From Paludibacteraceae bacterium (lineage in GTDB: Bacteria; Bacteroidota; Bacteroidia; Bacteroidales; Paludibacteraceae), in NCBI GenBank assembly GCA_017464475.1, contig JAFTZQ010000001.1, forward strand, positions 1-39,716: 39,716 bases of DNA, read 5' to 3'. This document shows positions 3,133 to 34,903 of the stretch, piece by piece. The position numbers and the translations under genes were made by a program. The notes under the pieces were generated by a model, which made no database searches, was not told the origin of the DNA, and saw nothing but the letters and a program-made list of their open reading frames with translations. Position 1 is the stretch's first letter. The number at the start of each line of letters is the position of its first letter.

Positions 3133-3287
3133 TTTTTTATGTTTATTGCTTTTAAATGCTTAAACCCTTCAGGGGGCGGGATTGGACGATAAAACTATCT
3201 GGGAGTTTACTCACAAGGAGGTTTATCGAGCAATAACGCAAAGCACGTAGTGCAAAAGCATTTAAAAGGGTTTTGTAGGTTTTTTTC
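3133..3287 (+). repeat. Family A structured repeat, copy A2
   Basis: Complete copy. Closing stem GCTTTTAAATGCTT (about 3147-3161) pairs with AAGCATTTAAAAG (about 3257-3269). Inside are three hairpins: a CCCT/AGGG stem near 3166, a long arm GATAAAACT (3188-3196) with AGGTTTATC (3219-3227) capped by GAGT-TT-ACTC (3203-3212), and GCAC-GTA-GTGC (3243-3253). The right end is 25 bp from the next start codon. Very close to copy A4. Confidence 0.85.
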
Positions 3288-3311
3288 TATAATTCTATAA
3301 AAATATACAAG

Positions 3312-3773
3312 GTGCGAATAGAGAACGACATATTGATCCCGGAGCTAGCACGGCTGCTGGCAGAAGGAAAGGAAGTGCGTTTCACGCCTTCCGGCGTCAG
3401 TATGCGACCCTTCATCGAAGGCGACAAAGACTCCGTCATCCTCTCGCCGCTGGAGCGTTTGCCGAAGAAAGGAGACATCCTCCTTGCGAATGTCCCTGCG
3501 CCCGGAGAACAGAGACGATATGTACTTCATCGCCTCATCCGTATAGAAGGAGCCGAGACCGGCGAACCGCTTTATATCTTAATGGGAGACGGTAACTTAG
3601 CCGGCACAGAGACCTGCACCCGCGCAGACATCATCGGACGTGTCACCCGCATTGAGAGCCCTTCCGGAAAACGAAAACCTCTCACGCGAGGCACGCTCTG
3701 GCGTCTCCTGCTGCCGTACCGCAAATACCTCCTCAAAATCTACCGCCACACCATCCTAAAATGGCACTATTAA
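3312..3773 (+). CDS. S24/S26 signal-peptidase-like serine protease
   Basis: 153-aa protein of the S24/S26 peptidase type. Ser30 lies in PSGVSMRPFI, the signature of signal peptidase active sites. There is no Lys general base as in LepB; instead His73 in YVLHRLIRI and Asp93 in LMGDGN are placed as in the Ser-His-Asp SEC11/S26B branch. There is no clear transmembrane helix at the N-terminus; the C-terminus is basic and aromatic. The start is a GTG 25 bp after repeat A2, with AAGG just upstream. In Bacteroidales such proteins are often found near PqqD-like proteins, and one lies at 4700-4984, suggesting processing of a peptide or precursor; that partnership is inference. Distinct from the housekeeping lepB at 34916-36361. 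Confidence 0.75.
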   Translation: MRIENDILIPELARLLAEGKEVRFTPSGVSMRPFIEGDKDSVILSPLERLPKKGDILLANVPAPGEQRRYVLHRLIRIEGAETGEPLYILMGDGNLAGTETCTRADIIGRVTRIESPSGKRKPLTRGTLWRLLLPYRKYLLKIYRHTILKWHY

Positions 3774-3781
3774 TTATATTG

Positions 3782-3945
3782 TAAATAAAGTAAGATAAAC
3801 CCTTTTAAATGCTTTAAAGCTTCGCTTTCTATGTTCTTGGGTGCTATAAACTCCTCGTGTGCAAGCACCCGGATAGTTTCTATCCCCCAAGCCCACACCC
3901 AAAGGAGGTAAAGCATTTAAAAGCAATAAAAGAAGATAAAATTAT
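3782..3945 (-). repeat. Family A structured repeat, copy A3 (inverted)
   Basis: Full copy in reverse orientation. Closing stem CCTTTTAAATGCTTT (about 3801) with AAAGCATTTAAAAG (about 3910-3924). Central hairpin reads GTGC-TT-GCAC on the minus strand (3859-3868), a compensatory variant of GAGT-TT-ACTC. The hairpin AAAGC-GAA-GCTTT replaces GCAC-GTA-GTGC. It follows the peptidase stop codon. Confidence 0.8.
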
Positions 3946-3954
3946 TTAGTTTAT

Positions 3955-4018
3955 TTATTTTTATTGCCGCAGGGCTTACAAACGACAGAGGGTTTTATCT
4001 TAATTTATATACTAAAAT
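3955..4018 (+). repeat. Family A repeat remnant (A3b), internally deleted
   Basis: A left-end-like TTTATTTTTATTGC joined to a right-end-like GGGTTTTATCTTAATTTATA, missing the hairpin core. The right end, ATTTATATACTAA-AAATCAACA, is nearly identical to that of copy A4 (4666-4695). It stands directly before the GxxExxY gene. Confidence 0.5.
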
Positions 4019-4054
4019 CAACAACGAGAAACGTTATAAACAAATATAGGAAAA

Positions 4055-4495
4055 ATGCAATTTACGTTAAAGCGCATAGTGGATGCACGTCCTGAGATGT
4101 TGGAAGAACTGAAGCAACGATGCTATGTCGTCAATGGGTGTTTGGTAAAGGTGCATAATGATTTGGGACCGTTTCTGAACGAGTATATGTACCAAGACGC
4201 TTTGCAGATATTACTAGACGCGAAGCAGATTCCATACCAGCGCGAATATTACTTTAGAATAGAATACATGGGCAAACCAATCGCTCATAAACACTATGTG
4301 GATTTCTTGGTTGAAGACGCTGTTATCGTAGAGTGTAAAGCAGTTGAGAAACTATGTTTAGAGCATAGACAACAATTATGGAACTATATGCGTCTGACAG
4401 GAAAACAATTAGGAATATTGTATAATTTTGGACCGGTAAAAGGGCAGTCGGAACATTATTATTTAGGCTCGGATGAAGTCATGTATATGTTCTGA
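4055..4495 (+). CDS. GxxExxY family protein (PDDEXK_3 nuclease fold)
   Basis: 146-aa protein of the GxxExxY family, a small PD-(D/E)XK nuclease-fold group. The family signature is at 38-46 (GPFLNEYMY). The nuclease core is YVDFLV (Asp83) followed by IVECKA (Glu93-Cys-Lys95), so the catalytic triad looks intact. The length is typical. The biological role of the family is not established; members often lie in mobile or defence-rich regions and may act on DNA or RNA. It is a single-gene unit flanked by family A repeats on both sides. The ATG at 4055 is preceded by an A-rich leader and no strong Shine-Dalgarno sequence, as usual in this phylum. Confidence 0.85.
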   Translation: MQFTLKRIVDARPEMLEELKQRCYVVNGCLVKVHNDLGPFLNEYMYQDALQILLDAKQIPYQREYYFRIEYMGKPIAHKHYVDFLVEDAVIVECKAVEKLCLEHRQQLWNYMRLTGKQLGILYNFGPVKGQSEHYYLGSDEVMYMF

Positions 4496-4521
4496 GGCAC
4501 AATGGAGGGACTATTGAATGA

Positions 4522-4684
4522 AGTTTATTTTAATTTATTGCTTTTGAATGCTTTCCCCGCAGGGGTGCAGGATTGAACGATAAAGCTATCTGGGAGTTTA
4601 CTCACAAGTAGATTTATCGAGCAATAACGCAAAGCACGTAGTGCAAAAGCATTTAAAAGTTTTTATCTATATTTATATACTAAT
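4522..4684 (+). repeat. Family A structured repeat, copy A4
   Basis: Full copy, near-identical in the core to A2. Hairpins: CCCC-GCA-GGGG (4555-4565), GATAAA...TTTATC capped by GAGT-TT-ACTC, and GCAC-GTA-GTGC (4634-4644). The closing stem has TTTTGAATGC against GCATTTAAAA, i.e. a G-U wobble if read as plus-strand RNA. The right end is 16 bp from the start of the PqqD-like gene. Confidence 0.85.
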
Positions 4685-4699
4685 AAAAATCAACACTTT

Positions 4700-4984
4700 A
4701 TGAAAACAATTGAAGGATTCAAGCTCCGCAAACTGGGCAATGAGTATATTCTGGTGGGCGAGTCGATGGCGCTCATCAATTTCAACAAAATGATCACCCT
4801 CAATGAGACTGCTGCTTTCCTCTGGGAGAAAGCGGAAGAAATGACCCGCGAAAAAGGCTCTTTCGACGTCCCCGCGCTCTGCAAAGCGCTCTGCGAGGAG
4901 TACGAAGTGTCGCCCTCGCAAGCCATGACCGATGTCTCCGCCACCGTCCACTCATGGCAAGAAGCCGGAATCATTGACCGCTGA
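4700..4984 (+). CDS. PqqD-like / RRE-domain protein
   Basis: 94-aa protein of the PqqD family (RiPP recognition element fold). The typical pattern is present: GFKLRKLGNEYILV, then ALINFNKMITLNETAAFLWE with the conserved LNETAAFLW helix start, and a helical C-terminal half ending DVSATVHSWQEAGIID. Known PqqD-type domains bind leader peptides and present them to modifying enzymes. No radical SAM enzyme, precursor peptide or transporter lies within the window, so a complete RiPP pathway is not shown. The S26-like peptidase 0.9 kb upstream may be a partner. The stop codon TGA forms part of a heptamer repeat array (CTGACTT-type). Confidence 0.85.
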   Translation: MKTIEGFKLRKLGNEYILVGESMALINFNKMITLNETAAFLWEKAEEMTREKGSFDVPALCKALCEEYEVSPSQAMTDVSATVHSWQEAGIIDR

Positions 4985-5010
4985 CTTCTGACGGCTGACA
5001 TCTGATTGCC
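4981..5010 (+). repeat. Family C heptamer array supplying a stop codon
   Basis: CTGACTT, CTGACGG, CTGACAT, CTGATTG in tandem. The TGA of the first unit is the stop codon of the PqqD-like gene. Same family as 9782-9838 and as in-gene copies at 21136, 33471 and 34317. Confidence 0.8.
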
Positions 5011-5043
5011 TTTTTTTAATAAACGGCTACACCTTATTACTAA

Positions 5044-5070
5044 TCGCGCGCGCAAGTGTGCGATTTTTTT
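5044..5070 (+). terminator. Rho-independent terminator after the PqqD-like gene
   Basis: Stem TCGCGCGC (5044-5051) with GTGTGCGA (5056-5063), 8 bp with two G-U pairs, closing a GCAA tetraloop, followed by seven T. The T-run also provides the -33 box of the next promoter. Confidence 0.75.
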
Positions 5071-5099
5071 GCCTATTTCAAAGAAATATAGTAATTTTG
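5068..5099 (+). promoter_or_regulatory. Bacteroidetes promoter of the 757-aa secreted protein gene
   Basis: TTTG at 5068-5071 and TAATTTTG at 5092-5099, 20 bp apart. It overlaps the tail of the preceding terminator. The block 4985-5100 is duplicated at about 9815-9945 in front of the DUF1016 gene. Confidence 0.85.
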
Positions 5100-5160
5100 C
5101 CCCGTTTTTGGCATAAAATTTAAGATTAACATAAAAATTAACATTATTTTAAAACAAAGT

Positions 5161-7434
5161 ATGAAAAAAATCTTTACCCTATTAAATGCTATGCTGCTGG
5201 CGGTGAGCGTCTTCGCGGCAACCGAGCAAGCATGGTACAATGATGTCACGTCCATCACCAATAATGGACAATATTACATCTATTCCGTCAACGGAAAAGG
5301 CTTTATGCAAGCCGGACAGGAGCAAGTGAAGGCAATTACAACAAGCAACTACACGAATGTCTCTACATTCAAGTTTACGATTGCTAATCCGAGCGAAGGA
5401 ACAGTGAAGAGCGGTAATTATTATTTGAAGTGTTACAAGGAGGTAATCGGTACATCGAGCGGTCCTATCAACACCAAGACGGAGAATGGTACAAACATTA
5501 TCTTTACTTCGATGAATAATGGCGAATATTGGAATATTCACGGTCATTATAATGTGTTTGGACAGCGTTATCCGGCATTGTATTACAAAAACGGTGAATA
5601 TAATGCCTATATCAGCGGAAGTGGCATTAACTATAGTAATACCAAAGATCTGCAGACTGTTTCTGAGTATCGTTGGTATGTAGTATCTCAGGCACAATTA
5701 GACCGCCACTGGGCTATCTATTTCTTCGACCTCTACAAAGAGAGCGTTAGTAATTATACCCAATATGAAAATCTGGTTCCTGCTGCATATTATACGGCAT
5801 TGGAAACAGCATACAGCCAAACTTTTGATGTAACGAACGCAGCCCATTCGGCTGAGGTCGTGAATGCAGCCAAGTCGGAGCTGGAGAATCTCTATAACAA
5901 CGCAGGTGCTGTGGCAGACGCTTACGCTGCTGCAGCGGCGAAAATCGCTAATCTGGAGGCTGTAGAGGATAAGGGTGAAGATTTCGCAGAAGTAACCGCA
6001 GGTATCTCCGCTGCACGTCAGGCTATCGAGAACGCGCTGAGCGTAGAGGCACTGAATGCAGCTGTTTCCGCTCCGAATCTCAAAGCGATTGACCCGATTA
6101 CATTCAATGTGACTTCGTTCATGGCAATCAGTTCTGTAAGCGAGGCCGCTTCTTCTGCTGCCGGACGTACGCTCTCTTACGTCGCTGCTGATGAGGCAAT
6201 TATCAATGCGGGAATGGCGATTTATAAAGGCGCTACGACGCTTACCGCTACCGCTGCAGCTACCGATGCGTACTATAAGTTCGTTCGCTCGGCACAAGTG
6301 ACAGTAGATGCTCCTACTACTTACGGTGACTTCGCTCAAACGACTTGCGACGAACCGGTAGAGTTCAACGAGAAGACCTATACCGAGACAACCCAAGAGG
6401 ACGTCAATGTAGGTCTGAACTTCATGGGCGGCGACTCGATCGTACATGTCTCTGTTGTTATCAACCACGCTTCTTTCGGCGCAGAGGAGATGACCATCGC
6501 TTATGGCGCTGAGGAGATATGGAACGGTATCGCATTAAGCGACTCAACGGTTGGTGAGCACGAAGTGGTATATGTGACTACCAACGCAGTTGGTTGCGAC
6601 TCCGTCGTCACGCTGCATCTGACGGTTACTAAACAGGACGTTGTTGTAAAACCGGTTGAGCTGTCCTTCTGTCGTGGTGGAGAAGTGGAGTTCCGTGGAA
6701 ATACCTATACCGAAGCCGGCAACTATACGCTGGAGGCAGCAGGAGCAGAACGCGATACCCTCTTCCAAATCACCGTGACGGAACTTCAGCCGTCTGAGAC
6801 GGTAGAATCGCTGACGATTCAGTATGGCGACAAAGAGGTATGGAACGGAATAGACCTCTCTACCTACGCTGTAGGCGACTATACCGAGTATTTCAATACC
6901 ACCAATACCGCCGGTTGCGACTCGATTGTTACCTTGCTTCTCACTGTGGATAAAAAGGATGCCTTTGAGGCAGAGCAGGAACTGGCGTTCTGCGAAGGCG
7001 ATTCTGCTGAGTACCGCGGCGTTTGGTACAAAGAGGCAGGTGAGTTCCCGATTGAGATCGTAGGCGAAGTGCAAGACACCCTTATTACCGTGAAAGTCAA
7101 TGTCTATGCGGTGGACAAGGCGGTTGAGCGTATGACCGTAGCAGCCGGAGATAAGATTGATCTGCCGGAGGGCGAATGGCTCATCGATGAGAAGACTTTC
7201 ACCGGCGAATATCTTACCTCGGAAGCCGACGTGCCGGAGCTTGTCTTCGTTCAGTCCGGCAAGACGGAAGAAGGATGCGACGCTATTACGGAATTGGTAG
7301 TAACCGTTACCAGCCGTGAAGGCGTAGAGAATGTTTCCGTAGAAACAAAAGCAGAGAAATTCATGCGTGACGGCAAGCTCTTCATCCGTCGCGGAGAAGC
7401 AATATATACCGCTACCGGCGAAAGAGTTGAGTAA
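5161..7434 (+). CDS. Secreted repeat protein (adhesin-like) with C-terminal sorting tail
   Basis: 757-aa exported protein. The signal peptide is about 1-19 (ending FAA). Residues about 25-180 form a beta-rich N-terminal domain rich in Tyr, Gly and Asn. Residues about 185-285 are Ala-rich helices (AYAAAAAKIANLEAVEDKG) like FIVAR-type stalk repeats. Residues about 380-700 alternate two module types, one starting FCRGGEVEFRGNTYTEAG-like and one ending NAVGCDSVVTLHLTV; the GCDSIVTLxLTV repeat is common in Bacteroidetes surface proteins. The tail (about 733-757, LFIRRGEAIYTATGERVE) matches those of the metallopeptidase and the giant adhesin. Probably a surface or secreted binding protein; ligand unknown. 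It is monocistronic, with its own promoter and a UUCG terminator. Confidence 0.8.
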   Translation: MKKIFTLLNAMLLAVSVFAATEQAWYNDVTSITNNGQYYIYSVNGKGFMQAGQEQVKAITTSNYTNVSTFKFTIANPSEGTVKSGNYYLKCYKEVIGTSSGPINTKTENGTNIIFTSMNNGEYWNIHGHYNVFGQRYPALYYKNGEYNAYISGSGINYSNTKDLQTVSEYRWYVVSQAQLDRHWAIYFFDLYKESVSNYTQYENLVPAAYYTALETAYSQTFDVTNAAHSAEVVNAAKSELENLYNNAGAVADAYAAAAAKIANLEAVEDKGEDFAEVTAGISAARQAIENALSVEALNAAVSAPNLKAIDPITFNVTSFMAISSVSEAASSAAGRTLSYVAADEAIINAGMAIYKGATTLTATAAATDAYYKFVRSAQVTVDAPTTYGDFAQTTCDEPVEFNEKTYTETTQEDVNVGLNFMGGDSIVHVSVVINHASFGAEEMTIAYGAEEIWNGIALSDSTVGEHEVVYVTTNAVGCDSVVTLHLTVTKQDVVVKPVELSFCRGGEVEFRGNTYTEAGNYTLEAAGAERDTLFQITVTELQPSETVESLTIQYGDKEVWNGIDLSTYAVGDYTEYFNTTNTAGCDSIVTLLLTVDKKDAFEAEQELAFCEGDSAEYRGVWYKEAGEFPIEIVGEVQDTLITVKVNVYAVDKAVERMTVAAGDKIDLPEGEWLIDEKTFTGEYLTSEADVPELVFVQSGKTEEGCDAITELVVTVTSREGVENVSVETKAEKFMRDGKLFIRRGEAIYTATGERVE

Positions 7435-7465
7435 GGTATTACAAAAAAAACAAAATGAGCAAAAG

Positions 7466-7488
7466 CAGCGTCTTCGGGCGCTGTTTTT
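7466..7488 (+). terminator. UUCG-loop terminator
   Basis: Stem CAGCGTC (7466-7472) with GGCGCTG (7477-7483), one U-G pair, tetraloop TTCG, followed by TTTTTG. It ends the transcript of the 757-aa protein gene. Confidence 0.8.
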
Positions 7489-7543
7489 GTGTCGGTACCG
7501 CTATAGCGCTTTGCAGCTCAAAACAAAAAAAATCTGGTGTAAA

Positions 7544-7575
7544 TTTGCGTATGTCGTTTTTTTGTTGTACTTTTG
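7544..7575 (+). promoter_or_regulatory. Bacteroidetes promoter, plus strand, upstream of the AlbA_2 gene
   Basis: TTTG at 7544-7547 and TACTTTTG at 7568-7575, spacing 20. The transcript would start near 7582 and could run about 265 nt to the AlbA_2 start. Its 3' part (7559-7579) recurs as an exact 21-bp inverted copy at 7756-7776, where it forms a promoter facing the other way. Confidence 0.8.
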
Positions 7576-7597
7576 CAACAAAATTACTATAATAAAT

Positions 7598-7642
7598 ATG
7601 GCTCAGGCAGCGGAAATAGAGAAATCAACTAAAAAGAAATAG
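7598..7642 (+). CDS. Possible 14-aa leader peptide
   Basis: ATG at 7598, about 16 nt after the expected transcript start, opens a 14-codon frame (MAQAAEIEKSTKKK). In the -1 frame, without an ATG at the join, an open stretch continues from 7633 to 7797 and includes a Cys-x-x-Cys motif (GCNKCGNY). The A-rich AAAAAG near 7631-7636 could permit slippage, but nothing proves it. It may be a leader peptide, a shifted gene, or chance. It lies antisense to the proposed small RNA. Confidence 0.25.
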   Translation: MAQAAEIEKSTKKK

Positions 7643-7754
7643 AAGTTCAGTTATTTCCATTTTGGAAAGTTCTGACGCAAGGCTGTAACAAGTGTGGAAA
7701 TTATAGAAAGTACAAACCCACAAGTGTGCCGAAGCAGGGACTTATGGGTCTTAC
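7625..7754 (-). ncRNA. Putative small RNA antisense to the AlbA_2 leader
   Basis: A minus-strand promoter (7760-7791) should start a transcript near 7753. Read on the minus strand it begins with a 10-bp stem ACCCATAAGT/ACTTGTGGGT (plus-strand 7714-7747), whose single non-Watson-Crick pair is a U-G allowed only on this strand, capped by TGC-TTCG-GCA. It ends with a hairpin TTTCCA-AAA-TGGAAA (plus-strand about 7652-7668), extended by an outer TCAG/CTGA pair (about 7645-7677), and a U-rich tail (TTTCTTTTTAG, about 7630-7640). About 125 nt, lying wholly opposite the predicted leader of the downstream gene. I cannot name an RNA family. Confidence 0.5.
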
Positions 7755-7759
7755 GGTTG

Positions 7760-7791
7760 CAAAAGTACAACAAAAATTTGAAATGAGCAAA
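7760..7791 (-). promoter_or_regulatory. Bacteroidetes promoter, minus strand, for the small RNA
   Basis: On the minus strand TTTG (plus 7788-7791) and TACTTTTG (plus 7760-7767) with 20 bp between. It faces the plus-strand promoter at 7544-7575 across about 180 bp, so the two are convergent. Confidence 0.7.
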
Positions 7792-7846
7792 TATTAAGAA
7801 AGAAAATACATTTTTTTATAATTTTAGGAACGAAAAATAAAAGTCA

Positions 7847-9268
7847 ATGACATCAGATATACAAAATATTATTTCTTGCGGAGAGAATAGCCGTGTGCAG
7901 TTTAAGCAGGAGTGGACTTCGCCCAAACAAATAGCATCGGAGTTAATAGCTTTTGCCAACACCAAAGGCGGTGACCTCTATATAGGCATTGAGGATAAGA
8001 CAGGAAAGATTATAGGTCTTTCGTATGAGGAGATACAAACTATCTCTCGCGAGATAGGCAATATAGCCAATGAGCAGATACGCCCAGCATTATATGTGCA
8101 GACGGAGACTTTATCCGTTGGAGACAAGCAGATTTTGGTTGTACACATCGAAGAAGGAAGAAACAAGCCCTACAAAGACTTGCAGGGAACAATCTGGGTG
8201 AAGCAGGGAGCAGACAAACGCCGTGTAACGGAAAATAGCGAAATTCTGCGGCTGTTCCAAGATGCAGGTGCTTATTATCCGGACCAGCATGTTGTGTTAC
8301 GTACCGGAATGAGTGACTTGGATGAACGATTATTGGAGGCATATATACAGAAGAAATCATCTACGGTGGATGTTTCGCTTCCGAAAGAGCAGTTGCTCCG
8401 TAATATGCAGATTATGGATGAAAGTGGCTGCCTGACGATGGGCGGTTTGCTGTTTTTTGGTAAAAACCCGCAAATGTATATGCCGAGCATGGTTATAAAG
8501 GCTGTAGCTTTTTACGGAAATAGTATAGGTGGTACCCAATATAGAGACAGTAAGGATTTTTCGGGTACTATTCCGCAGATGTATGAACAGGGTTTGGCGT
8601 TCCTGAAGAATAATCTGCACGCCGTGCAATCCGGACAGAATTTTAATTCTCTCGGTATCTTGGAAATACCGCAAATCGCTTTGGAAGAGTTACTGCAAAA
8701 TGCTTTGGTTCATAGAGACTACCTCACCCCGGCTCCGATACGGCTGCTCATATTTGATAACCGGGTAGAAATTATCAATCCCTGTCATCTCGGAAGAGGG
8801 ATGTCGGTAGAAACTATTTTACGCGGAGCAACTTACCAATGTAACCCTCTGCTGGCTAAGTTTTGTGAAGAATTGATGATTTACCGGGGCTTGGGTTCCG
8901 GAATACGTCGTGCATTGGCGGAGTTCCCGGATTTGGAAATTACATATCGTGAAGATAGCGGGGATTTTATCGTGACTTTGCAGCGCAAAACAGAGGCTGA
9001 TGGCGAGAAGGATGGCAAGATGGGAGAGATAAATGGCGTGAAGGAACCTACTGAAAGACAATATCTTATATTAAGAGTTATTCGCGATAATGGCGAGATA
9101 ACGATACCAGATTTGGCAAGAAAGACAGGAATTAGTCAACGAACATTAAGCCGTGAACTTGATTATTTGCAAAAATACCATTTCTTGTCACGTGTAGAAG
9201 GTCGCCGATATGGACACTGGGTGTTAACAATGCCGCATTTGCCAAAAGATAACTCTCAAGAAGAATGA
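7847..9268 (+). CDS. AlbA_2 (Schlafen-like) domain ATP-binding transcriptional regulator
   Basis: 473-aa protein of the AlbA_2 / divergent AAA-4 type often annotated as RecG-like or putative transcriptional regulator. The AlbA_2 domain is at about 9-125 (ENSRVQFKQEW, SELIAFANTKGGDLYIGIED). A GHKL-like ATPase region spans about 270-370 (LEELLQNALVHRDYL near 278-292; GLGSGIRRAL). A C-terminal winged helix-turn-helix lies at about 400-460 (ITIPDLARKTGISQRTLSREL). All parts look intact and the length is normal. Function is not established for most members; some act as DNA-binding regulators and some sit in mobile or defence regions. The long leader is covered by a predicted antisense RNA. Fragment-rich DNA follows. 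Confidence 0.85.
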   Translation: MTSDIQNIISCGENSRVQFKQEWTSPKQIASELIAFANTKGGDLYIGIEDKTGKIIGLSYEEIQTISREIGNIANEQIRPALYVQTETLSVGDKQILVVHIEEGRNKPYKDLQGTIWVKQGADKRRVTENSEILRLFQDAGAYYPDQHVVLRTGMSDLDERLLEAYIQKKSSTVDVSLPKEQLLRNMQIMDESGCLTMGGLLFFGKNPQMYMPSMVIKAVAFYGNSIGGTQYRDSKDFSGTIPQMYEQGLAFLKNNLHAVQSGQNFNSLGILEIPQIALEELLQNALVHRDYLTPAPIRLLIFDNRVEIINPCHLGRGMSVETILRGATYQCNPLLAKFCEELMIYRGLGSGIRRALAEFPDLEITYREDSGDFIVTLQRKTEADGEKDGKMGEINGVKEPTERQYLILRVIRDNGEITIPDLARKTGISQRTLSRELDYLQKYHFLSRVEGRRYGHWVLTMPHLPKDNSQEE

Positions 9269-9396
9269 TATGAAATAAATTGACATATTCAATTGATAAA
9301 TAGTCGTTTAATAGCAATGAATAGAAGAAATGACGCTATAAATGACATGATAGATATCCCAAAGGATGCCCCAAATATATAAAGGACAAAAAAATA

Positions 9397-9453
9397 ATGT
9401 CAGAACTGATTAAAGATAACAAAGTTACTTATAAGTCTATTCCTTTTTTTTGA
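9397..9453 (+). pseudogene. Truncated copy of the DUF1016 gene start
   Basis: Encodes only 18 codons, MSELIKDNKVTYKSIPFF. The first 26 nt of the frame match the start of the intact DUF1016 gene at 10045 with one mismatch, and the upstream AAAGGACAAAAAA also matches. Homology stops after about nine codons. It is a remnant of a duplicated or replaced gene, not a functional product. Confidence 0.65.
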
Positions 9454-9509
9454 TTTGAACTGCAATGCAAATTTTTGAATGATTGTTGGTAATTTTAGAC
9501 TAATAAAAA

Positions 9510-9555
9510 TGTTTATTTATGTTTATTGCTTTTGAAGGCTTTTACTCTCAGAGTT
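9510..9555 (+). repeat. Family A repeat, left end only (A5)
   Basis: TTTATGTTTATTGCTTTTGA then GGCTTTTACTCTCAGAGTTGCG, matching the left end of copy A6 at 31325 including the first hairpin ACTC-TCA-GAGT. The core and right end are missing; the sequence runs straight into a copied gene tail. Confidence 0.75.
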
Positions 9556-9598
9556 GCGGAGAAGCAATATATACCGCTACCGGCGAGCGTGTAGAATA
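9556..9598 (+). pseudogene. Fossil C-terminal tail of a secreted protein gene
   Basis: Reads CGEAIYTATGERVE then TAA. The DNA is almost identical to the last ~45 bases of the 757-aa protein gene (7390-7434), including a run of more than 25 identical bases, but nothing upstream is coding; it is fused to a truncated family A repeat. It marks a deletion or recombination that removed the rest of a paralogous gene. Confidence 0.7.
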
Positions 9599-9608
9599 AC
9601 AGCTAATA

Positions 9609-9680
9609 TACGGATAAGTAATAATCGTTCCGTAGAGAATCTACGGATAAGTAATAATCGTTCCGGACGAATGTACGGAT
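9609..9680 (+). repeat. Tandem repeat, about 33-bp period, 2.3 copies
   Basis: TACGGATAAGTAATAATC-type units start at 9609, 9642 and 9674. The first 24 bases are identical in copies 1 and 2, followed by 8-9 variable bases. The third copy keeps only TACGGATAAG. Too few copies and too short gaps for a CRISPR array. Confidence 0.8.
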
Positions 9681-9744
9681 AAGAACAGGACCATCACGGG
9701 ATCATGTTCCGAGAAAGGTCCCCCAAAAGTACAATCAGAACAAA

Positions 9745-9774
9745 CAGAGAGTGCGCAATCATGCGCACTCTCTG
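9745..9774. terminator. Strong bidirectional hairpin terminator
   Basis: Perfect 12-bp stem CAGAGAGTGCGC (9745-9756) / GCGCACTCTCTG (9763-9774) with loop AATCAT. GAACA before and TGTTC after can extend the pairing. It is followed by TTCTTATA, a modest T-run. It probably ended the lost gene whose tail lies at 9556-9598. Confidence 0.75.
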
Positions 9775-9781
9775 TTCTTAT

Positions 9782-9838
9782 ACTGATAGCTGATAGCTGA
9801 CTTCTGACTTCTGACTTCTGACTTCTGACGGCTGATAG
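9782..9838 (+). repeat. Family C heptamer array
   Basis: About eight tandem 7-bp units: CTGATAG twice, CTGACTT four times, CTGACGG, CTGATAG. On the plus strand each unit carries TGA, so the array stops translation in all three frames. Confidence 0.85.
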
Positions 9839-9896
9839 CCTTTTATTAATAATCGGCTACACCTTATTATTATTCGCGCGCGTAAAGGAGGAAAAA

Positions 9897-9928
9897 TTTG
9901 CATATTCCAAAGGAATATATTAATTTTG
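9897..9928 (+). promoter_or_regulatory. Bacteroidetes promoter of the DUF1016-adhesin unit
   Basis: TTTG at 9897-9900 and TAATTTTG at 9921-9928, spacing 20. The block from about 9815 is a duplicate of 4985-5100, but here the terminator hairpin present in the first copy has decayed. Confidence 0.8.
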
Positions 9929-10044
9929 CACCCAAATTCGCGCTGTTTTGCAGTACAAATATGTAGATTTGCTTAAAAATTGTACATTTGCAAAACTGAC
10001 ATAGCAAAACCCGCAAAAAAGGACAAAAAAGGATAAAAAGAAAA

Positions 10045-18244: not shown

Positions 18245-18246
18245 AA

Positions 18247-24318: not shown

Positions 24319-24349
24319 AGTGATTTACAATTTATTCATTTACAATTTA

Positions 24350-27142: not shown

Positions 27143-27189
27143 CTGTAGTTGTTTTTATTTTGTAATATATATATGTTTGTAATTACGGT

Positions 27190-27246: not shown

Positions 27247-27266
27247 AATTTCAGGTACAAAAACGA

Positions 27267-27851: not shown

Positions 27852-27876
27852 AATATATAATTTTGTCTAAATTTAA

Positions 27877-27911
27877 TCTTCAAATTTTTAAATCTTCAAA
27901 TCTTCAAATCT
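27877..27911. repeat. Family D octamer array at the ribE stop
   Basis: Minus strand: ATTTGAAG units with ATTTAAAA variants. The TGA stop of ribE (27904-27906) is part of the first unit. Confidence 0.8.
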
Positions 27912-28524: not shown

Positions 28525-29938
28525 TTTGAATAGGAAAATCTTTATGAGTTAATACAATTAAATAAATACCGATTAGTCCGGTGCCGACAGCCATCATCAC
28601 CCACATATTGTGGATATAATACAGCCGTAGCGCATAATAGACCGCCAGCAGACCAATCGTCATTGCCGTATAGCCGCCGATACTTTTCAGATCATAGGGA
28701 ATCGGAGCTTTCTTCTGACCGATGAAATAGGACAGCAGCATAATGACGAAATAGCACACAAGGCTGCTGCCGCAACTTGCCCAATACCCGATTCGCGGCA
28801 CGCCCACAATCTGCAAAACCAACGTGATTGCCAGACCGATCAGCGAGAAATAAGCACCCCATTTGGTCTCGTCCGTCAGTTTGTACCAGAAACTGAGATT
28901 GAAATAAATCCCTTGGAAAACATACGTCCAGAGCACCACCGGAACGATCTTCAGCCCCTCCCAATACGCGCTGGAAACGATGTACCGGAATATATCCAGA
29001 TAGAAGATCACACCCAGCAGAATGAGGTATGAGAAGATGATATAGTATTTCATCGCGTCGGCGTACGCCTCCACGGATTGGCGGTCCTTATGTTTGGCAA
29101 AAACGAACGGTTCGTACGCATAGCGGAAGGCTTGGGTGAACATCATCATCACCATTGCCACTTTGAAGCACGCACCGTAGATACCCAACTGCGCCTGCGC
29201 GTCCGCGCCCGTATAGAGATATGGAAAGAGGATCCGGTCCAGCGTCTGGTTCATGATTCCCGCTACGCCGAGCACCAGCAGAGGCAGCGAATAACGAAGC
29301 ATCTCTTTTAGCACCGGCACGCTGAATTGACCGCCTTTCGGTAAGGTCATTGGCAGCAGGCACAGCGTCTGGATACAGGTCGCCAAGATATTACTGAGAA
29401 AGACATAGAATACATCATTCTTGCCCAATACCACAAGGAACAGCAGGTTGAACGCGATATTGAGAACGACGAACAGCAGCTTGAGCGCCGCAAAACGAAT
29501 CGGGCGCTTCTGATATCGCAGGTACGCAAACGGAATGCACGCAAACGCATCAATCGCCACCGTGGCAAACATCATCTCCACGAACTCCGAATGGTCGGGA
29601 TAGCCCAGCGCATTGGCGATCGGCTGATGGAAAACGACCACCAGCATCGTGAACACCGCGCTGGAGCATAGCAACGTCAGAAACGCCGTTTTATACACGG
29701 TCTTCGGATCGTAGTCTTCGCGGTTGGCGAAACGGAAGAAACCGGTCTCCATGCCATACGTCAGAATGACCAGCAGCAGAGCCGTCCAAGCATAGATATT
29801 CGTGACGATTCCGTAGTCCGATGTGCGCGCCAACGCATACGTGTACAGCGGCACCAATAGGTAGTTCAAAAACTTGCCTATGATCGAACTCGCACCGTAG
29901 ATCACGGTGTCCTTCGCCAATGATTTCATCTCACTCAT
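28484..29938 (-). CDS. Polysaccharide flippase (Wzx/MATE-like)
   Basis: 484-aa integral membrane protein with about 12-14 helices and a standard flippase N-terminus (LAKDTVIYGASSIIGKFLNY). It probably exports a lipid-linked oligosaccharide. Not closely similar to the flippase at 24350. The start at 29938 lies 23 bp from the rsmI stop, across a linker of 7-bp repeats. Its 3' end overlaps ribE by 41 bp; this ribE-flippase-rsmI packing suggests one operon. Substrate unknown. Confidence 0.85.
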   Translation of the reverse strand: MSEMKSLAKDTVIYGASSIIGKFLNYLLVPLYTYALARTSDYGIVTNIYAWTALLLVILTYGMETGFFRFANREDYDPKTVYKTAFLTLLCSSAVFTMLVVVFHQPIANALGYPDHSEFVEMMFATVAIDAFACIPFAYLRYQKRPIRFAALKLLFVVLNIAFNLLFLVVLGKNDVFYVFLSNILATCIQTLCLLPMTLPKGGQFSVPVLKEMLRYSLPLLVLGVAGIMNQTLDRILFPYLYTGADAQAQLGIYGACFKVAMVMMMFTQAFRYAYEPFVFAKHKDRQSVEAYADAMKYYIIFSYLILLGVIFYLDIFRYIVSSAYWEGLKIVPVVLWTYVFQGIYFNLSFWYKLTDETKWGAYFSLIGLAITLVLQIVGVPRIGYWASCGSSLVCYFVIMLLSYFIGQKKAPIPYDLKSIGGYTAMTIGLLAVYYALRLYYIHNMWVMMAVGTGLIGIYLIVLTHKDFPIQNVLRNRRNHGSGR

Positions 29939-29939
29939 G

Positions 29940-29971
29940 CTTCTCTTTCAACTTTCAACTTTCAATTTTCA
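29940..29971. repeat. Family D heptamer linker between rsmI and flippase genes
   Basis: Minus strand: TTGAAAA and TTGAAAG units. The rsmI stop codon TGA (29962-29964) lies in one of them. Confidence 0.75.
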
Positions 29972-30630
29972 ATTCCCGCAACGCAGACCACAATCTCGCC
30001 TTTGGGCGCTTTCGCTTTGAAATGTGCCACCAGTTCTGCCAGCGAACCTCTTACTGTCTCTTCGTGCACTTTGCTGATCTCGCGCGTCACACTCGCCTTG
30101 CGCTCTTCGCCGCATACCGCCGCCAGTTGTTCCAAGGTCTTCACCAGCCGGAAAGGTGACTCATAGACGATAAACGTCTGGTCCAGCGCAGCGAGATACT
30201 GCAATCGTGTCTGCCTTCCTTTCTTCTGCGGCAGGAAACCCTCGAAATAGAAATGGTTGTTCGGCAGTCCGCTGTCCACTAAAGCCGGCACAAAAGCCGT
30301 CGCTCCGGGCAGCGTCTGAATCTCTATCTCCGCTTCGGCAGCTGCGCGCACCAGAAAGAACCCGGGGTCGCTGATAGCAGGAGTGCCCGCATCGGAGATA
30401 AGCGCGATGTTTGCACCTGCTTTCAGCCGCTCCACAATGTCCGCAGAGGTCTCATGCTCGTTGAACTTATGATGGCTCTTCAGCGGCGTATGGATGTCAT
30501 AATGTTGCAGCAGAATACCGCTCGTACGCGTGTCTTCCGCCAAAATCAGATCCACTGATTTCAGCACCTCAATCGCGCGGAACGTCATGTCCTGCAAATT
30601 ACCAACCGGTGTCGGAACAATGTATAACAT
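29962..30630 (-). CDS. rsmI: 16S rRNA (cytidine1402-2'-O)-methyltransferase
   Basis: 222-aa RsmI of the tetrapyrrole-methylase fold, methylating the ribose of C1402 in the ribosomal P site. Diagnostic stretches: MLYIVPTPVGNLQDMTFRA, ILAEDTRTSG, HHKFNEHE, ISDAGTPAISDPG, LPGATAFVPALVDSGLP and VYESPFRL. Slightly short of the E. coli protein but typical for Bacteroidetes. The linker to the preceding gene is four 7-bp repeats followed by TTAATG. Cytoplasmic. Confidence 0.96.
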   Translation of the reverse strand: MLYIVPTPVGNLQDMTFRAIEVLKSVDLILAEDTRTSGILLQHYDIHTPLKSHHKFNEHETSADIVERLKAGANIALISDAGTPAISDPGFFLVRAAAEAEIEIQTLPGATAFVPALVDSGLPNNHFYFEGFLPQKKGRQTRLQYLAALDQTFIVYESPFRLVKTLEQLAAVCGEERKASVTREISKVHEETVRGSLAELVAHFKAKAPKGEIVVCVAGIEN

Positions 30631-30663
30631 TAATTTTCAATTCTCAATTTTCAATTCTCAATT
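30631..30663. repeat. Family D heptamer linker before rsmI
   Basis: Minus strand: TTGAGAA, TTGAAAA, TTGAGAA, TTGAAAA, abutting the TAA of the coiled-coil gene and three bases from the rsmI ATG. Confidence 0.85.
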
Positions 30664-31258
30664 ACCCGAACCTCCGATGCAGCGTTACAATAAACTGCTG
30701 GTATGAATTACTCTCGGTGTCCCATCCGAAGCGGCGGATGTACTCCATCGCCTCGTCAAACGAACCCAACTCATTCAGCTCCGTCAGCGTCTTTTGCATC
30801 AGTTCGGCGTTCTGACCGAACAACTCACGTTGATACAAGAACCGGTCGCCCAGCGAGATCGCCTGACGAATATCCGTCACAGCCTTGCCGTAGATAGCCG
30901 CTTTCGGAGATGCCACTTCCTCCTTCACCGGTTCCTCTTTGACGGGTTTCGGCTCCTCTTTGACGGGTTCCGGCTCTGGCTTTGCCACTACAACAGGCTC
31001 TGCCACAACAACCGGCTCCGGCTCGGAGTATTCTACTTTTTCTTCTCCCTCTCTTGAGGAGAGGGCAGGGGTGAGGTTTTCTTTCTCAACCACTTGTGGC
31101 TCCGGCAGAGGACGACTTTTCAGTTCCTCTATATCTGCTTCCAGCGAAGCAATAACTGCTTCGTTGGTCTGCTGAGCCTCCTCCAGAGCCGCGATGCGTT
31201 TTTCATTTTCCGCTATCCGCGCCTCCAGAGACTCAAAATATTTAATTACTTCCTCCAT
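30662..31258 (-). CDS. Coiled-coil protein, conserved in Bacteroidales, unknown function
   Basis: 198-aa protein. Residues 1-50 form a coiled coil (EARIAENEKRIAALEEAQ). Residues about 52-120 are low-complexity Pro/Glu/Val/Lys. The C-terminal 75 residues hold a conserved-looking block (IRQAISLGDRFLYQRELFG, then DEAMEYIRRFGWD) that I recall from small Bacteroidetes proteins without an assigned function. No signal peptide or transmembrane segment. Residues 61-71 (LTPALSSREGE) are encoded by a family B palindrome inserted in frame in the flexible linker. Confidence 0.75.
   Translation of the reverse strand: MEEVIKYFESLEARIAENEKRIAALEEAQQTNEAVIASLEADIEELKSRPLPEPQVVEKENLTPALSSREGEEKVEYSEPEPVVVAEPVVVAKPEPEPVKEEPKPVKEEPVKEEVASPKAAIYGKAVTDIRQAISLGDRFLYQRELFGQNAELMQKTLTELNELGSFDEAMEYIRRFGWDTESNSYQQFIVTLHRRFG
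31045..31076. repeat. Family B palindrome (B1) in the coiled-coil gene
   Basis: CCCTCTC-TTGAG-GAGAGGG core followed by CAGGGGTGAGG. In frame; the coding strand reads NLTPALSSREGE. Confidence 0.85.
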
Positions 31259-31324
31259 AAAAAATTATCAAATGTCAAATTACTATTGTTGCGATATTTT
31301 AAGTTTTATAATTTGAATAGTCAA

Positions 31325-31486
31325 TGTTTTTTTATGTTTATTGCTTTTGAAGGCTTTTACTCGCAGAGTTGCGAAGTTTGGTGGTAAAAACTATCCGAAA
31401 GCTTGCTTGCGAGGAGTTTTTAGTAGCAAAATACGCATAGCGCTTTGCGCTAAAGCCTTCAAAAGGGTTTATCTTTGTTTATTTTC
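31325..31486 (+). repeat. Family A structured repeat, copy A6
   Basis: Full copy between the POT and coiled-coil genes. Closing stem CTTTTGAAGGCTTT with AAAGCCTTCAAAAG. Hairpins: ACTC-GCA-GAGT (31359-31369), TAAAAACT (31385-31392) with AGTTTTTA (31415-31422) enclosing AAGC-TT-GCTT (31399-31408), and AGCGC-TTT-GCGCT (31439-31451). Compared with A2, the closing stem and all three hairpins have changed on both sides so as to keep pairing. The rest of 31259-31530 shows no gene. Confidence 0.9.
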
Positions 31487-31510
31487 TTAAAATTATCGCA
31501 ACACTACTAT

Positions 31511-31533
31511 TCTCAATTCTCAATTCTCAATTA
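31511..31533. repeat. Family D heptamer array at the POT stop codon
   Basis: Three TTGAGAA units on the minus strand directly after the TAA stop (31531-31533) of the transporter gene. Confidence 0.8.
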
Positions 31534-33069
31534 TTTCGTCGCGTCTTCCAGCTTGCCCATCATCGCAAACATGAAGATAGCGGCAATCAGGCACACGCCG
31601 ATGAACACGCTCCAAACGAGCCACAACGGCAGACTGCCCCAGAGGAAACCGCCCACGGAAACAAGGAAATTACCCAGCGCAGTAGCTACAAACCAGCCAC
31701 CCATCATCATTCCTTTGTATTGCGGAGGTGCCACTTTGCTGACGAACGAAATACCCATCGGGCTAAGCAGTAACTCACCGAAAGTGAGTACCAAATATGT
31801 CAAAATCAGCACATTGGCATTGACGAATGTACCTTCGCCGGCAACGCGTGCCAACTCTTGCTCTGCCGGACTCAACAGCCCAACTGAACAGAATGCCATT
31901 ACCGCATAAGCTGCTGCGGCTACCAACATACCATAGGCGATCTTACGCGGAGCACTCGGCTCTTTGCCTTTCTTCGCCAACGCACCGAAAATAGCCATGC
32001 TCACCGGAGTCAGAGCTACTACGTAGAACGGGTTGAATTGTTGGAAAATAGGAGCGGAAATGCCCAACTCTGCCGGGTGGCTGAGATATTTATAAGCCAG
32101 CGCACCAATCACAGCGATACCCACGCAGCTCCAGATCGTCTTCGCTTTGCGGCTGCCTTCGCCGAAAATACCGAACAGCGCATACACCAGAATAGCTACC
32201 AATACCAAGTTGATGATATCAAATGCCATCGTTTGAACCCCCGTCACAACCGGGTTCACAAACTCATTGGCGAAATAAGTCAGCGTCAGACCGTTCTGGT
32301 GGAATGCCATCCAGAAGAACAGCACAACGGCGAACACCAGACACAGCGCCACGATACGTTTCTTGGTCTGCTCCGGAGTCAGCGTCTCTACTTTCTGACC
32401 GCTCGCTGCCGCTTGTTTGGCGGTGTTCTCCACGTGTTTGAACCAAGGACGGCAAGCATAATAGATCGCGATACTCAATACCAGCGAAGCGCAGGCTACC
32501 GCGAACGCGAAATGGTAACTGTCATTGACGCTCACACCCAGTGAATCCTGAGCCCACGCCATGATCTTCACAGCTGCCGTCGGAGCGAACATAGCGCCGA
32601 TATTGATTGCCATATAGAACAGAGAGAAGGCTGCATCGCGGCGGTCGGCATACTGCGGATCGTCATACAGATTACCCACCATCACTTGCAAGTTTCCTTT
32701 GAAAAGACCCGTTCCGAAACTGATCAGCACCAGCGCAGCGATCATGCCTGTCATCGCCACAGCCGTACTGCCGCTCTCTACGCCACCCATCGGAAGCGCC
32801 AGAAGCACGTAGCCCAGAAACATAATGATAATTCCGATCGTCACGCATTTGCCGTAACCGATCTTGTCAGCTACGATACCGCCGATCAGCGGCAGAAAAT
32901 ACACAAATGCCAAAAAAGTGGAATAAATAGCACCTGCGGCAGAAGCCGACAAACCAAAATTAGCGCGCAGGAACAGCGCAAAAACGGCTAACATCGTGTA
33001 GTAGCCGAAGCGTTCGCCCGTGTTGGCCAACGCCAGAGCAAAAAGCCCTTTAGGTTGATTCTTAAACAT
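31531..33069 (-). CDS. POT/PTR2-family proton-dependent oligopeptide transporter
   Basis: 512-aa major facilitator of the proton-coupled oligopeptide transporter family, importing di- and tripeptides across the inner membrane. About 12-14 helices. The family ExxERFxYY motif in helix 1 appears as NTGERFGYY (16-24); the first acidic residue is Asn16, as is usual in Bacteroidetes members. Other matching stretches are YFLPLIGGIVADKIGYGK and LITFGTGLFKGN-like LISFGTGLFKGNLQVMVGN. Length is normal. Substrate range cannot be read from the sequence. Lies 77 bp downstream of ilvE. Confidence 0.92.
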   Translation of the reverse strand: MFKNQPKGLFALALANTGERFGYYTMLAVFALFLRANFGLSASAAGAIYSTFLAFVYFLPLIGGIVADKIGYGKCVTIGIIIMFLGYVLLALPMGGVESGSTAVAMTGMIAALVLISFGTGLFKGNLQVMVGNLYDDPQYADRRDAAFSLFYMAINIGAMFAPTAAVKIMAWAQDSLGVSVNDSYHFAFAVACASLVLSIAIYYACRPWFKHVENTAKQAAASGQKVETLTPEQTKKRIVALCLVFAVVLFFWMAFHQNGLTLTYFANEFVNPVVTGVQTMAFDIINLVLVAILVYALFGIFGEGSRKAKTIWSCVGIAVIGALAYKYLSHPAELGISAPIFQQFNPFYVVALTPVSMAIFGALAKKGKEPSAPRKIAYGMLVAAAAYAVMAFCSVGLLSPAEQELARVAGEGTFVNANVLILTYLVLTFGELLLSPMGISFVSKVAPPQYKGMMMGGWFVATALGNFLVSVGGFLWGSLPLWLVWSVFIGVCLIAAIFMFAMMGKLEDATK

Positions 33070-33114
33070 AATTCAATTTATTTAATTTTTCATTTTCTCA
33101 TTTTTCCATTTGTT

Positions 33115-33148
33115 CTCCCTCCCTTGAGGGGAGGGACGGGGTGGGGTT
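33115..33148. repeat. Family B palindrome (B2) abutting the ilvE stop codon
   Basis: CCCTCCC-TTGAG-GGGAGGG core followed by ACGGGGTGGGG. It begins at the TAA of ilvE on the coding strand; the rest of the ilvE-POT gap is AT-rich. Confidence 0.85.
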
Positions 33149-34187
33149 ATTCAATTACCTCACACCATCCATGTCTGTCCTCCGCCCGTCCGTACTGAAT
33201 ATCCTTCAGCGAGTGGTACAAATCTGTCAGTATTGGTTCCGGCTGGTCGCTCAGGTGGTAAATCTTATTCTTCTCCGGGTCAATTACTTTGTCGATCGGA
33301 CTGATCACACAAGCCGTTCCGCAAGCGGCTGCCTCACTCATCTGCTCCAACTCCTCCAGCCGTATATGCCGCCGCGTCACTTTATAACCCTTATCACGCG
33401 CCAATGTCATCAGACTGTCATTCGTGATACTCGGCAGAATTGCACTACTCCGCGGTGTCAGGTACTCGATCTCTGACGGCTGATGGCTGACAGCTGAAAG
33501 CTTCTTAATCCCAATAAAATTCGCCGCGCTGCACTCATCGATATACCGATGATATTTGGCGTCGAGGAACAGACAATCCATTCCTTGCGCGTGCGCCGGT
33601 TCTGTCGCGCGGAACGATGAAGCATAATTGCCTCCGACCTTGAAAGTACCCGTTCCGTAAGGAGCCGCCCTGTCCACATGCCGGTTCACTACAAACGTCG
33701 TGCAATGGAACTTACCCGGATAGTACGGACCAATCGGCGAAGGAATGACGATAAACTCAAAATCCCTGCCCGGTCCCACACCCAGACGAGGCGTCGTGCC
33801 AATCAGCAGCGGACGAAAATAGAGCGTTGCACCGGTTCCGTAAGGCGGAACAAAATCCATATTCTTCTCCAGCGCCAAATGAATCGCTTTGCCGAAAATC
33901 TCCTCCGGCACAGGAGCCATATACAGCCCCTCTGCGCTTCGTGCCATTCGTTTCGCATTCTCGCGCCAGCGGAAAATACGGATCTTCCCGTCCACTCCGC
34001 GGAATGCTTTCAACCCCTCAAAAGCCTCTTGTCCGTATTGCAGACAAGTAGCCGATACATGCAAATGCAAAAACTTGTCCTTCGTGGCGTACGGTTCTTC
34101 CCACACGCCCTCATGGTATGCCGACCGGACTATATAATCCGGTTCGGTATAATGAAATCCTAATTTACTCCAATCAATCTCTTTCAT
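33147..34187 (-). CDS. ilvE: Branched-chain amino acid aminotransferase
   Basis: 346-aa fold-type IV PLP aminotransferase that makes or degrades Val, Leu and Ile by transamination with 2-oxoglutarate/Glu. Family motifs: LFLDAKYHRYIDECSAANF, GTGTFKVGGNYASS with PLP lysine near 183, RHIRLEELEQMSEAAACGTA and the start MKEIDWSKLGF. ATG at 34187 was chosen over the TTG one codon earlier. In the usually short turn IGIKxxxYLTP there is an extra SAVSHQPSE, encoded by a family C heptamer repeat (about residues 229-239). The active-site lysine lies well before it, so the enzyme is probably functional. Confidence 0.95.
   Translation of the reverse strand: MKEIDWSKLGFHYTEPDYIVRSAYHEGVWEEPYATKDKFLHLHVSATCLQYGQEAFEGLKAFRGVDGKIRIFRWRENAKRMARSAEGLYMAPVPEEIFGKAIHLALEKNMDFVPPYGTGATLYFRPLLIGTTPRLGVGPGRDFEFIVIPSPIGPYYPGKFHCTTFVVNRHVDRAAPYGTGTFKVGGNYASSFRATEPAHAQGMDCLFLDAKYHRYIDECSAANFIGIKKLSAVSHQPSEIEYLTPRSSAILPSITNDSLMTLARDKGYKVTRRHIRLEELEQMSEAAACGTACVISPIDKVIDPEKNKIYHLSDQPEPILTDLYHSLKDIQYGRAEDRHGWCEVIE
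33471..33503 (+). repeat. Family C heptamer array in frame in ilvE
   Basis: CTGACGG, CTGATGG, CTGACAG, CTGAAAG on the plus strand. The coding strand is stop-free and reads KLSAVSHQPSE, extra relative to the usual ilvE turn. Confidence 0.85.
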
Positions 34188-34190
34188 CAA

Positions 34191-34238
34191 TTCTCAAATC
34201 TTCAAATCTTCAAATTTTCAAATCTTCAAATCTTCAAA
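34191..34238. repeat. Family D octamer array at the wbqC 3' end
   Basis: ATTTGAAG units on the minus strand. They encode the last residues of WbqC (FEDLKI), supply its TGA (34218-34220) and run to the ilvE ATG. Confidence 0.85.
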
Positions 34239-34736
34239 CAGCGTGTCCAGCACGCTCAACTCCGTTTGCCACGGATGTTTGTCTGTCCAAATCTGTCCGC
34301 TCCAGTCCTCTGTGCGCTCTGACGGCTGAAAGCTGACAGCTGAAGGCTTCTGCTTTTTAAGCAGAGAGGCAATCGTCGCGTTCAGCTCGTCATTCAGGTC
34401 TATCAGCCATTTGTACTCGCGTTCGTAGAACGGCTTCAGGTAGTCCGCGAAATACATGAAATACGGCGTGTGTTGGTAGGCACTGACGAGCGTGATCCAG
34501 TGTTGGTGTTGCCATCGCGTCTGGTAACTGATCTCGATGTCTCGCGTGAGCTGTTTGTGCTCCACTTTCTTCACCGGTATCGTCAGCCGCACCAACGCGT
34601 CTTTGGCGTCTCTTATAATCGCCCGGTTGCGGAACGTCTGTTTCTCAAACGTCTCCATCTGTTCGATTGTCGCCGGTTCGCGCATCAGCGCTTCCATGTA
34701 CGACAAGGGCGGCAAATATGCAGTCGGTAGAATCAA
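34218..34736 (-). CDS. WbqC family protein
   Basis: 172-aa member of the WbqC-like family (role in polysaccharide or cell-envelope biogenesis suspected, not established). The N-terminus ILPTAYLPPLSYMEAL, the block LTIPVKKVEHKQLTRDIEIS and the C-terminal KHPWQTELSVLDTLFEDL fit the family. Somewhat shorter than usual (about 200). No ATG is available; TTG at 34736 fits the conserved start. Residues about 129-140 (PSAVSFQPSE) come from a family C heptamer repeat. The last six codons and the stop come from a family D octamer array, so the native C-terminus seems replaced. Follows lepB as in other Bacteroidales. Confidence 0.8.
   Translation of the reverse strand: MILPTAYLPPLSYMEALMREPATIEQMETFEKQTFRNRAIIRDAKDALVRLTIPVKKVEHKQLTRDIEISYQTRWQHQHWITLVSAYQHTPYFMYFADYLKPFYEREYKWLIDLNDELNATIASLLKKQKPSAVSFQPSERTEDWSGQIWTDKHPWQTELSVLDTLFEDLKI
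34317..34350 (+). repeat. Family C heptamer array in frame in wbqC
   Basis: CTGACGG, CTGAAAG, CTGACAG, CTGAAGG on the plus strand. The coding strand reads KPSAVSFQPSE, stop-free. Confidence 0.85.
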
Positions 34737-34743
34737 TTCAACA

Positions 34744-34903
34744 ATGTTTTTTGTGTTTATGTCTTTAAAATGCTTTTACTCTTTAGAGTTTGGAATTTGA
34801 TGATAAAAGTTATCTGGGAGTTTACTCACAAGTAAGTTTTATTAGCAAATTTCAATTAAGCGAAGCTTTAAAGCATTTTAAAGGGTTTTTATTGTTTTTT
34901 TCT
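34744..34903 (+). repeat. Family A structured repeat, copy A7
   Basis: Full copy between lepB and wbqC. Closing stem CTTTAAAATGCTTT with AAAGCATTTTAAAG. Hairpins: ACTCT-TT-AGAGT (34778-34789), a GATAAAAGTTA/TAAGTTTTATT arm with GAGT-TT-ACTC, and AAGC-GAA-GCTT. It ends 13 bp from the lepB stop codon. Confidence 0.88.

Follow-up and report, generated by a model that had tools for sequence, protein, structure and literature searches.

Dispersed cloverleaf-forming repeats in a rumen Paludibacteraceae genus and a PD-(D/E)XK nuclease as their candidate partner

The locus and its repeat family

The stretch of DNA analysed here (the window) comprises 39,716 nucleotides, positions 1 to 39,716 of contig JAFTZQ010000001.1 from a Paludibacteraceae bacterium (GenBank assembly GCA_017464475.1), and is contig C11 of its 1.9-Mb draft genome, G000. 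It contains several copies of a repeat of about 155 bp, the cloverleaf element, and a gene for a GxxExxY protein of the PD-(D/E)XK nuclease superfamily. Five copies constitute one family, type A, recognized by the model R2 and by RNA folding: 3134-3286 (plus strand, 143.9 bits), 3783-3938 (minus strand, 136.5 bits), 4526-4678 (plus strand, 129.3 bits), 31329-31484 (plus strand, 169.4 bits) and 34748-34902 (plus strand, 121 bits). The GxxExxY gene (4055-4495, plus strand, 146 amino acids) sits between the second and third of these, with the minus-strand copy on its upstream side and the plus-strand copy on its downstream side. An earlier sequence-only reading of the window described the repeats and overlooked both this gene, their likely partner, and the preference for inverted pairing that is described below. 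The protein matches PF13366 (E-value 2.1e-31) and TIGR04256 (4e-31; 107.8 bits, with a cut-off of 35), and residues E43, D83, E93 and K95, which represent the catalytic E, D and ExK, are invariant in 26 aligned homologues. A sequence search of the PDB returned no solved relative (best E-value 0.98).

The consensus fold is a four-way junction, in which a 14-pair closing stem encloses two outer hairpins, the first and the last, and between them a long central arm with bulges; a closing stem enclosing three hairpins had been predicted from the window copies. Its conservation was analysed in a structure-free alignment (A2, plain MAFFT) of 18 copies from the same genome. In this alignment 95.6% of cells pair, 17 of the 45 pairs change on both sides, and the covariation score is 0.265, compared with 0.123 after shuffling and at most 0.065 for slid structures. 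All six helices keep pairing while they change, including the long bulged central arm and the closing stem, which is paired in 99.2% of cells and constitutes terminal inverted repeats. Among 106 copies from the genus, changes on both sides occur in 44 of the 45 pairs, with a score of 0.660 compared with 0.219 for shuffles and at most 0.122 for slid structures; being fitted to the model, this larger alignment is biased in favour of the structure, and relatedness of the sequences inflates the shuffle tests in general. The covariation is strong, and the proposal that the fold is maintained through compensating changes agrees with both sets of copies.

The sequence-only reading had placed six copies and two remnants in a single family. 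In addition to the five type A copies, this grouping is correct for the remnants, which are weak: 3952-4010 (plus strand, 25.7 bits) is mainly two element ends, and 9514-9652 (plus strand, 21.2 bits) is a left end followed by unrelated sequence. It does not apply to the sixth piece, listed as 1-168, which has the interior of a second type. This feature (1-165, plus strand, 32.6 bits) represents a type B element with a type A right end, of which the contig start leaves only the 3′ portion. In a full type B element (G000:C35:15666-15929) the ends and part of the closing stem are those of type A, and the interior is different. Folding of the window piece (20-147) gave a z-score of -0.84, no better than its own shuffles; with DNA parameters, type B forms a closing stem and three arms, most clearly in a divergent copy (L012:5271-5490). 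At a further locus (L105:99-299) the right half of the interior is swapped for other hairpins, and the ends and closing stem are kept.

Other sequences recur alongside the elements. A tail, CTTAAAATTATCGCAACACTACTA, is common to several copies past their right end (31485-31510 in the window) and is also present in the related genome G029; the copy at 31329 carries its inverse on the left side. Separately, a stretch ahead of large open reading frames (ORFs), at 4975-5152 and 9805-9932 in the window, recurs at many places across the genus.

Dispersal, mobility and the GxxExxY genes

A model built only from the copies in G000 (R1) was run on 37 genomes of one genus of rumen Paludibacteraceae, of which it matched 23, and on 24 genomes of other families, of which it matched none; the named relatives are metagenome-assembled genomes of rumen Bacteroidales or Paludibacteraceae. 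A broader model (R2), built partly from copies beside three GxxExxY genes (the window gene, L276 and L284), had matches in three genomes among 295 from the order, namely G000, G402 from the same genus, and G368 from a different family, in which the elements have another sequence and the same fold. Within G000, the R1 matches listed occupy at least 25 separate places, some of which, at contig ends, may be the same locus. Raw matches number 26 in G002 and 15 in G006, and these two genomes, with G000, G001 and G029, are the five with the most matches, followed by G035 and G018. Further copies, for which a scan of this genome and of related Bacteroidales had been suggested, are present in G000, in the genus and in the distant G368.

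Comparisons with sister genomes provide evidence for movement. For the 34748 copy, both flanks are present in 19 sister loci, 18 of which are free of the element; the remaining one, in G002, retains a remnant of 36 bases from its left part. A second site, C13:36000, is element-free in all 15 sister loci. R2 had no match in 58 sister loci totalling 242 kb, a set that covers 14 of these 15 (L079 lies outside it). Empty orthologous sites in sister species indicate, on the basis of these comparisons, that the element family is mobile, in line with the earlier suggestion of a mobile dispersed element; for one further copy (L012:10039), no orthologue of the site was found. Pairs of elements less than 150 bp apart are arranged (-,+) in eight of 10 cases and (+,+) in two, and all three pairs within 300 bp in G368 are (-,+). 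The end consensus is T-rich (left AAATGT/AAATTT, right CTTAAA/TCTTAA). The copies are flanked by T-rich direct repeats that fall into two classes; in 101 of 125 copies the left and the right flank belong to the same class, and in nine they do not. These direct repeats may represent a target duplication or a binding motif.

The link with GxxExxY genes was examined across the genus, for which 31 genes were collected; L279 and L288 (below the TIGR04256 cut-off) and G029:C19:30419 (no locus) were left out. Their tree separates one clade, termed ECK (support 0.997), from the rest (ELK). Of the 19 ECK genes, 18 have a cloverleaf no more than 300 bp away, compared with none of the 12 ELK genes (Fisher p 9e-8). 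Three of the 18 associations (L278, L289 and L352) rest on matches of 20-27 bits, so that the count at 30 bits or more is 15 of 19, and the E-value of L352 is flattered by the much smaller search that produced it. In the one ECK locus scored as a miss (L292), the sequence next to the gene folds as a cloverleaf. Furthermore, R1 had already placed elements in 12 other GxxExxY loci. Element orientation is also patterned: left ends face the gene in all 11 flanking matches of the nine genes nearest the window gene, and in 18 of 24 across all ECK genes.

Elements on both sides were seen for the window gene, L276, L284 (where a second ORF separates the gene from its far copy), L273 (where the far copy is at a distance of 758 bp) and L277 (where the match on one side is weak). 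For the majority of the remaining ECK genes, several of which lie near contig ends, an element was seen on one side only. A comparison of two units in G029 shows sequence in common over the gene, over the 3′-side element up to 5 bp or less from its ends, and over roughly the first 20 bp of the 5′-side element, with nothing shared further out. At one site the arrangement in G029 is element-gene-element, and the orthologous site in G003 has two elements separated by 33 bp. Other arrangements were noted at individual loci. One of the two G029 units has a second small ORF (145 amino acids; L107:3117-3554) between the gene and the far element, and this is missing in the other. At L012:4790-5508, a GxxExxY gene and a type B cloverleaf lie between two genes that are almost contiguous in the sister genomes used for comparison. 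By eye, GxxExxY genes of different subclades (L274 and L283) seem to occupy the space between the same two neighbours in two species, resembling a hot spot.

We propose that the repeats are non-autonomous mobile elements comparable to the repetitive extragenic palindromic (REP) sequences and their REP-associated tyrosine transposases (RAYT), that they act as a cloverleaf of single-stranded DNA (ssDNA), and that their partner is the GxxExxY nuclease. This reading as a whole is about as likely as not. The step by which GxxExxY would mobilize the repeats is one that we infer from the genomic arrangement. Several observations weigh against it. The ECK genes are not independent, four of them (L272, L273, L275 and L284) representing one orthologous locus, and the training set of R2 included the copies beside three of the 19 genes. 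In 10 of the 23 element-bearing genomes of the genus, including the high-copy G002 and G006, no GxxExxY gene exceeds the cut-off; elements occur without a GxxExxY match in G368, and an ECK gene is present in G014, a genome that R1 does not match. A perfect genome-wide pairing of gene and element is rejected on the first of these counts. In addition, the three orthologue groups compared, whose species are too divergent, yielded neither an exact insertion boundary nor a target duplication.

Some of these points would be expected if the repeats were derivatives of another transposon (of DDE or unknown type) that recognizes their ends, like miniature inverted-repeat transposable elements (MITEs), with GxxExxY a passenger between copies or a user of them for its own regulation. 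The absence of GxxExxY from many element-bearing genomes is consistent with this, as are the T-rich direct-repeat flanks and the exchange of interiors (type B and the replaced arm at L105) between constant ends and closing stems. Set against this, among the 25 most frequent of 144 Pfam families in 125 neighbouring ORFs (of 206; the nearest ones of up to 600 amino acids) there was no transposase. The commonest family in these 125 was PDDEXK_3, with four members, which also formed the largest sequence cluster among 210 neighbours. An ordinary MITE has no need of an internally covarying four-arm fold, and the specific adjacency to ECK genes is left unexplained. An origin of this type appears unlikely, though it is the most probable of the alternatives.

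No PADLOC defence model matched the two GxxExxY proteins scanned. The literature searched, with most subscription papers and preprints outside its scope, held incidental mentions of GxxExxY, with no function or repeat association, and no report on PDDEXK_3 with flanking repeats or on cloverleaf repeats.

DNA or RNA as the folded molecule

Whether the elements act as folded ssDNA, as RNA or as both was left undecided in the sequence-only reading. Two features favour ssDNA, and RNA remains compatible with them. The first is that mismatches within the helices are asymmetric: G.T outnumbers A.C by 19:3 in A2 and 169:44 in alignment A5 when three and four badly paired positions, respectively, are omitted, and by 22:7 in A2 and 224:73 on 130 copies when they are included. 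This excess suggests one strand folding alone, and not a symmetric feature of the duplex. The second is the predominance of GNA sequences, in which N can be any base, among the closed triloops of the first and last hairpins (52 of 75 and 64 of 108); PMC4686876 describes GNA and GNNA loops as forming unusually stable DNA mini-hairpins. Because the copies are related, this loop preference is an indication and not a test.

A structured RNA, regulatory or catalytic, with copies that have spread and a fold selected in the transcript would also show a strand-specific fold with G.U-type pairs. The five type A window copies fold strongly as RNA (z-scores of -3.1 to -6.5 relative to shuffles), and in seven ECK loci the left end of the cloverleaf lies 10-14 bp upstream of the GxxExxY start codon, so that the leader of the gene's mRNA could carry it. 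However, the orientation to neighbouring genes is inconsistent: for 92 copies with genes on both sides, 41 have both antisense, 25 both sense, 15 are convergent and 11 divergent. The loops are mainly of the GNA type, and GNRA (nine) and UNCG (none) tetraloops are scarce. Nothing in the window matched any Rfam family above its gathering score, and a permissive Rfam scan of nine loci gave a single sub-threshold microRNA match that lay outside the elements; that the sequence-only reading did not recognize a described family agrees with this comparison with Rfam. We regard an RNA explanation as improbable. More specific versions of it were rejected, namely a known Rfam RNA (no match above a gathering score), a tRNA (none detected by ARAGORN) and a cis-regulatory RNA at a fixed position (mixed orientation to genes).

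The double changes could in part be mutational, with template switching in quasi-palindromes or gene conversion rewriting both arms, and arm sequences do occur as discrete variants that recur in different combinations, but this is very improbable given that all six helices in A2 keep pairing while changing, that the mismatch asymmetry points to selection on one folded strand, and that the GxxExxY partner would be left unexplained.

A possible mechanism and related systems

In the proposed ssDNA system, GxxExxY would bind the cloverleaf in the form of ssDNA made accessible by replication or of an extruded cruciform, and the cut would fall on or close to the junction or the T-rich ends. Some PD-(D/E)XK enzymes resolve Holliday junctions. 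Release of the element, or of an inverted pair, could then be followed by copying or insertion into a further T-rich site between genes. Solitary copies and pairs without a gene would be derivatives mobilized in trans, or would be left after loss of the gene.

A wider and more tentative proposal, under which the system would be a PD-(D/E)XK counterpart of REP and RAYT, gives GxxExxY proteins in general the role of mobility nuclease for a novel class of miniature mobile DNA that would be widespread in Bacteroidota; each clade would have its own dispersed structured repeat, and ECK would recognize its ssDNA cloverleaf as a four-way junction. GxxExxY genes are present in 59 of 118 Bacteroidota genomes sampled. 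Across the phylum, repeats occur on both sides within 300 bp for 17 of 25 GxxExxY genes, compared with four of 38 control ORFs from the same loci; one control ORF with repeats is probably a second GxxExxY gene, and four of the 29 phylum loci had no recognized ORF. Within the genus, repeats flank 19 of the 28 GxxExxY genes tested, in a setting without a control. R2 matched none of the 29 Bacteroidota loci, and other clades would therefore have other repeats. Genes of other clades (L305-L333 and L263-L271) are often flanked by different repeats, direct or inverted, such as CACGGAT- or AATCTGTG-like units. For the repeats next to the two ELK genes of G000, dispersal was not counted as evidence: the L263 repeat matches four other places in 99.5 kb, but seven of 14 random low-GC pieces likewise gave a match at another place.

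For GxxExxY proteins, the link of one clade to a covarying mobile cloverleaf provides a concrete candidate substrate. If the proposal is correct, a REP-like system need not depend on an HUH transposase and can be driven by a different nuclease, and the element offers a natural DNA four-way junction that is under selection.

Several known systems share features with these elements. The enterobacterial RU-1, RU-2 and RU-3 elements and MITEs are short, non-coding, mobile intergenic repeats of 100-170 bp, according to PMC2759123. The cloverleaf resembles them in these respects, and its closing stem provides terminal inverted repeats, but they are described as inverted-repeat elements, whereas the cloverleaf has three internal covarying arms; furthermore, no transposase with the same ends was found, and none was among the 25 most frequent Pfam families of the neighbouring ORFs. 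IS200/IS605 elements move through folded ssDNA, as outlined in PMC6006769. The likeness lies in the folded ssDNA that is proposed for the cloverleaf; the difference is that the Y1 transposase family (PF01797) had no match in G000, G001, G002, G006 or G029, the five genomes with the most copies. Single weak matches occur in other genomes of the genus (G035, 1.2e-4; G018, 4.5e-5), and a Y1 or RAYT protein is rejected as the current engine. The window gene is itself a member of an established family of proteins, GxxExxY (TIGR04256/PF13366).

The closest parallel is with REP sequences, their mosaic and doublet forms (bacterial interspersed mosaic elements, BIME, and REP doublets forming hairpins, REPIN) and RAYT, together known as REPtrons. 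PMC2817692, PMC3116915 and PMC3733652 describe small dispersed intergenic hairpins, inverted doublets, a gene between two inverted copies and complementary mutations in the arms; repeats and RAYT genes do not always coincide in a genome (PMC3733652). The cloverleaf system is alike in its dispersed copies, its inverted doublets, the complementary changes in its arms, and the mismatch of element and partner among genomes; copies on both sides of the gene were seen for the window gene and a few others. No GTAG or CGTC tag was seen at the cloverleaf ends, as judged by eye from the consensus. The systems differ in that the cloverleaf measures about 155 bp, compared with 20-40 bp for a REP, and folds as a four-way junction, and in that the partner of a REP is an HUH Y1 transposase, whereas the candidate partner here is a PD-(D/E)XK protein.

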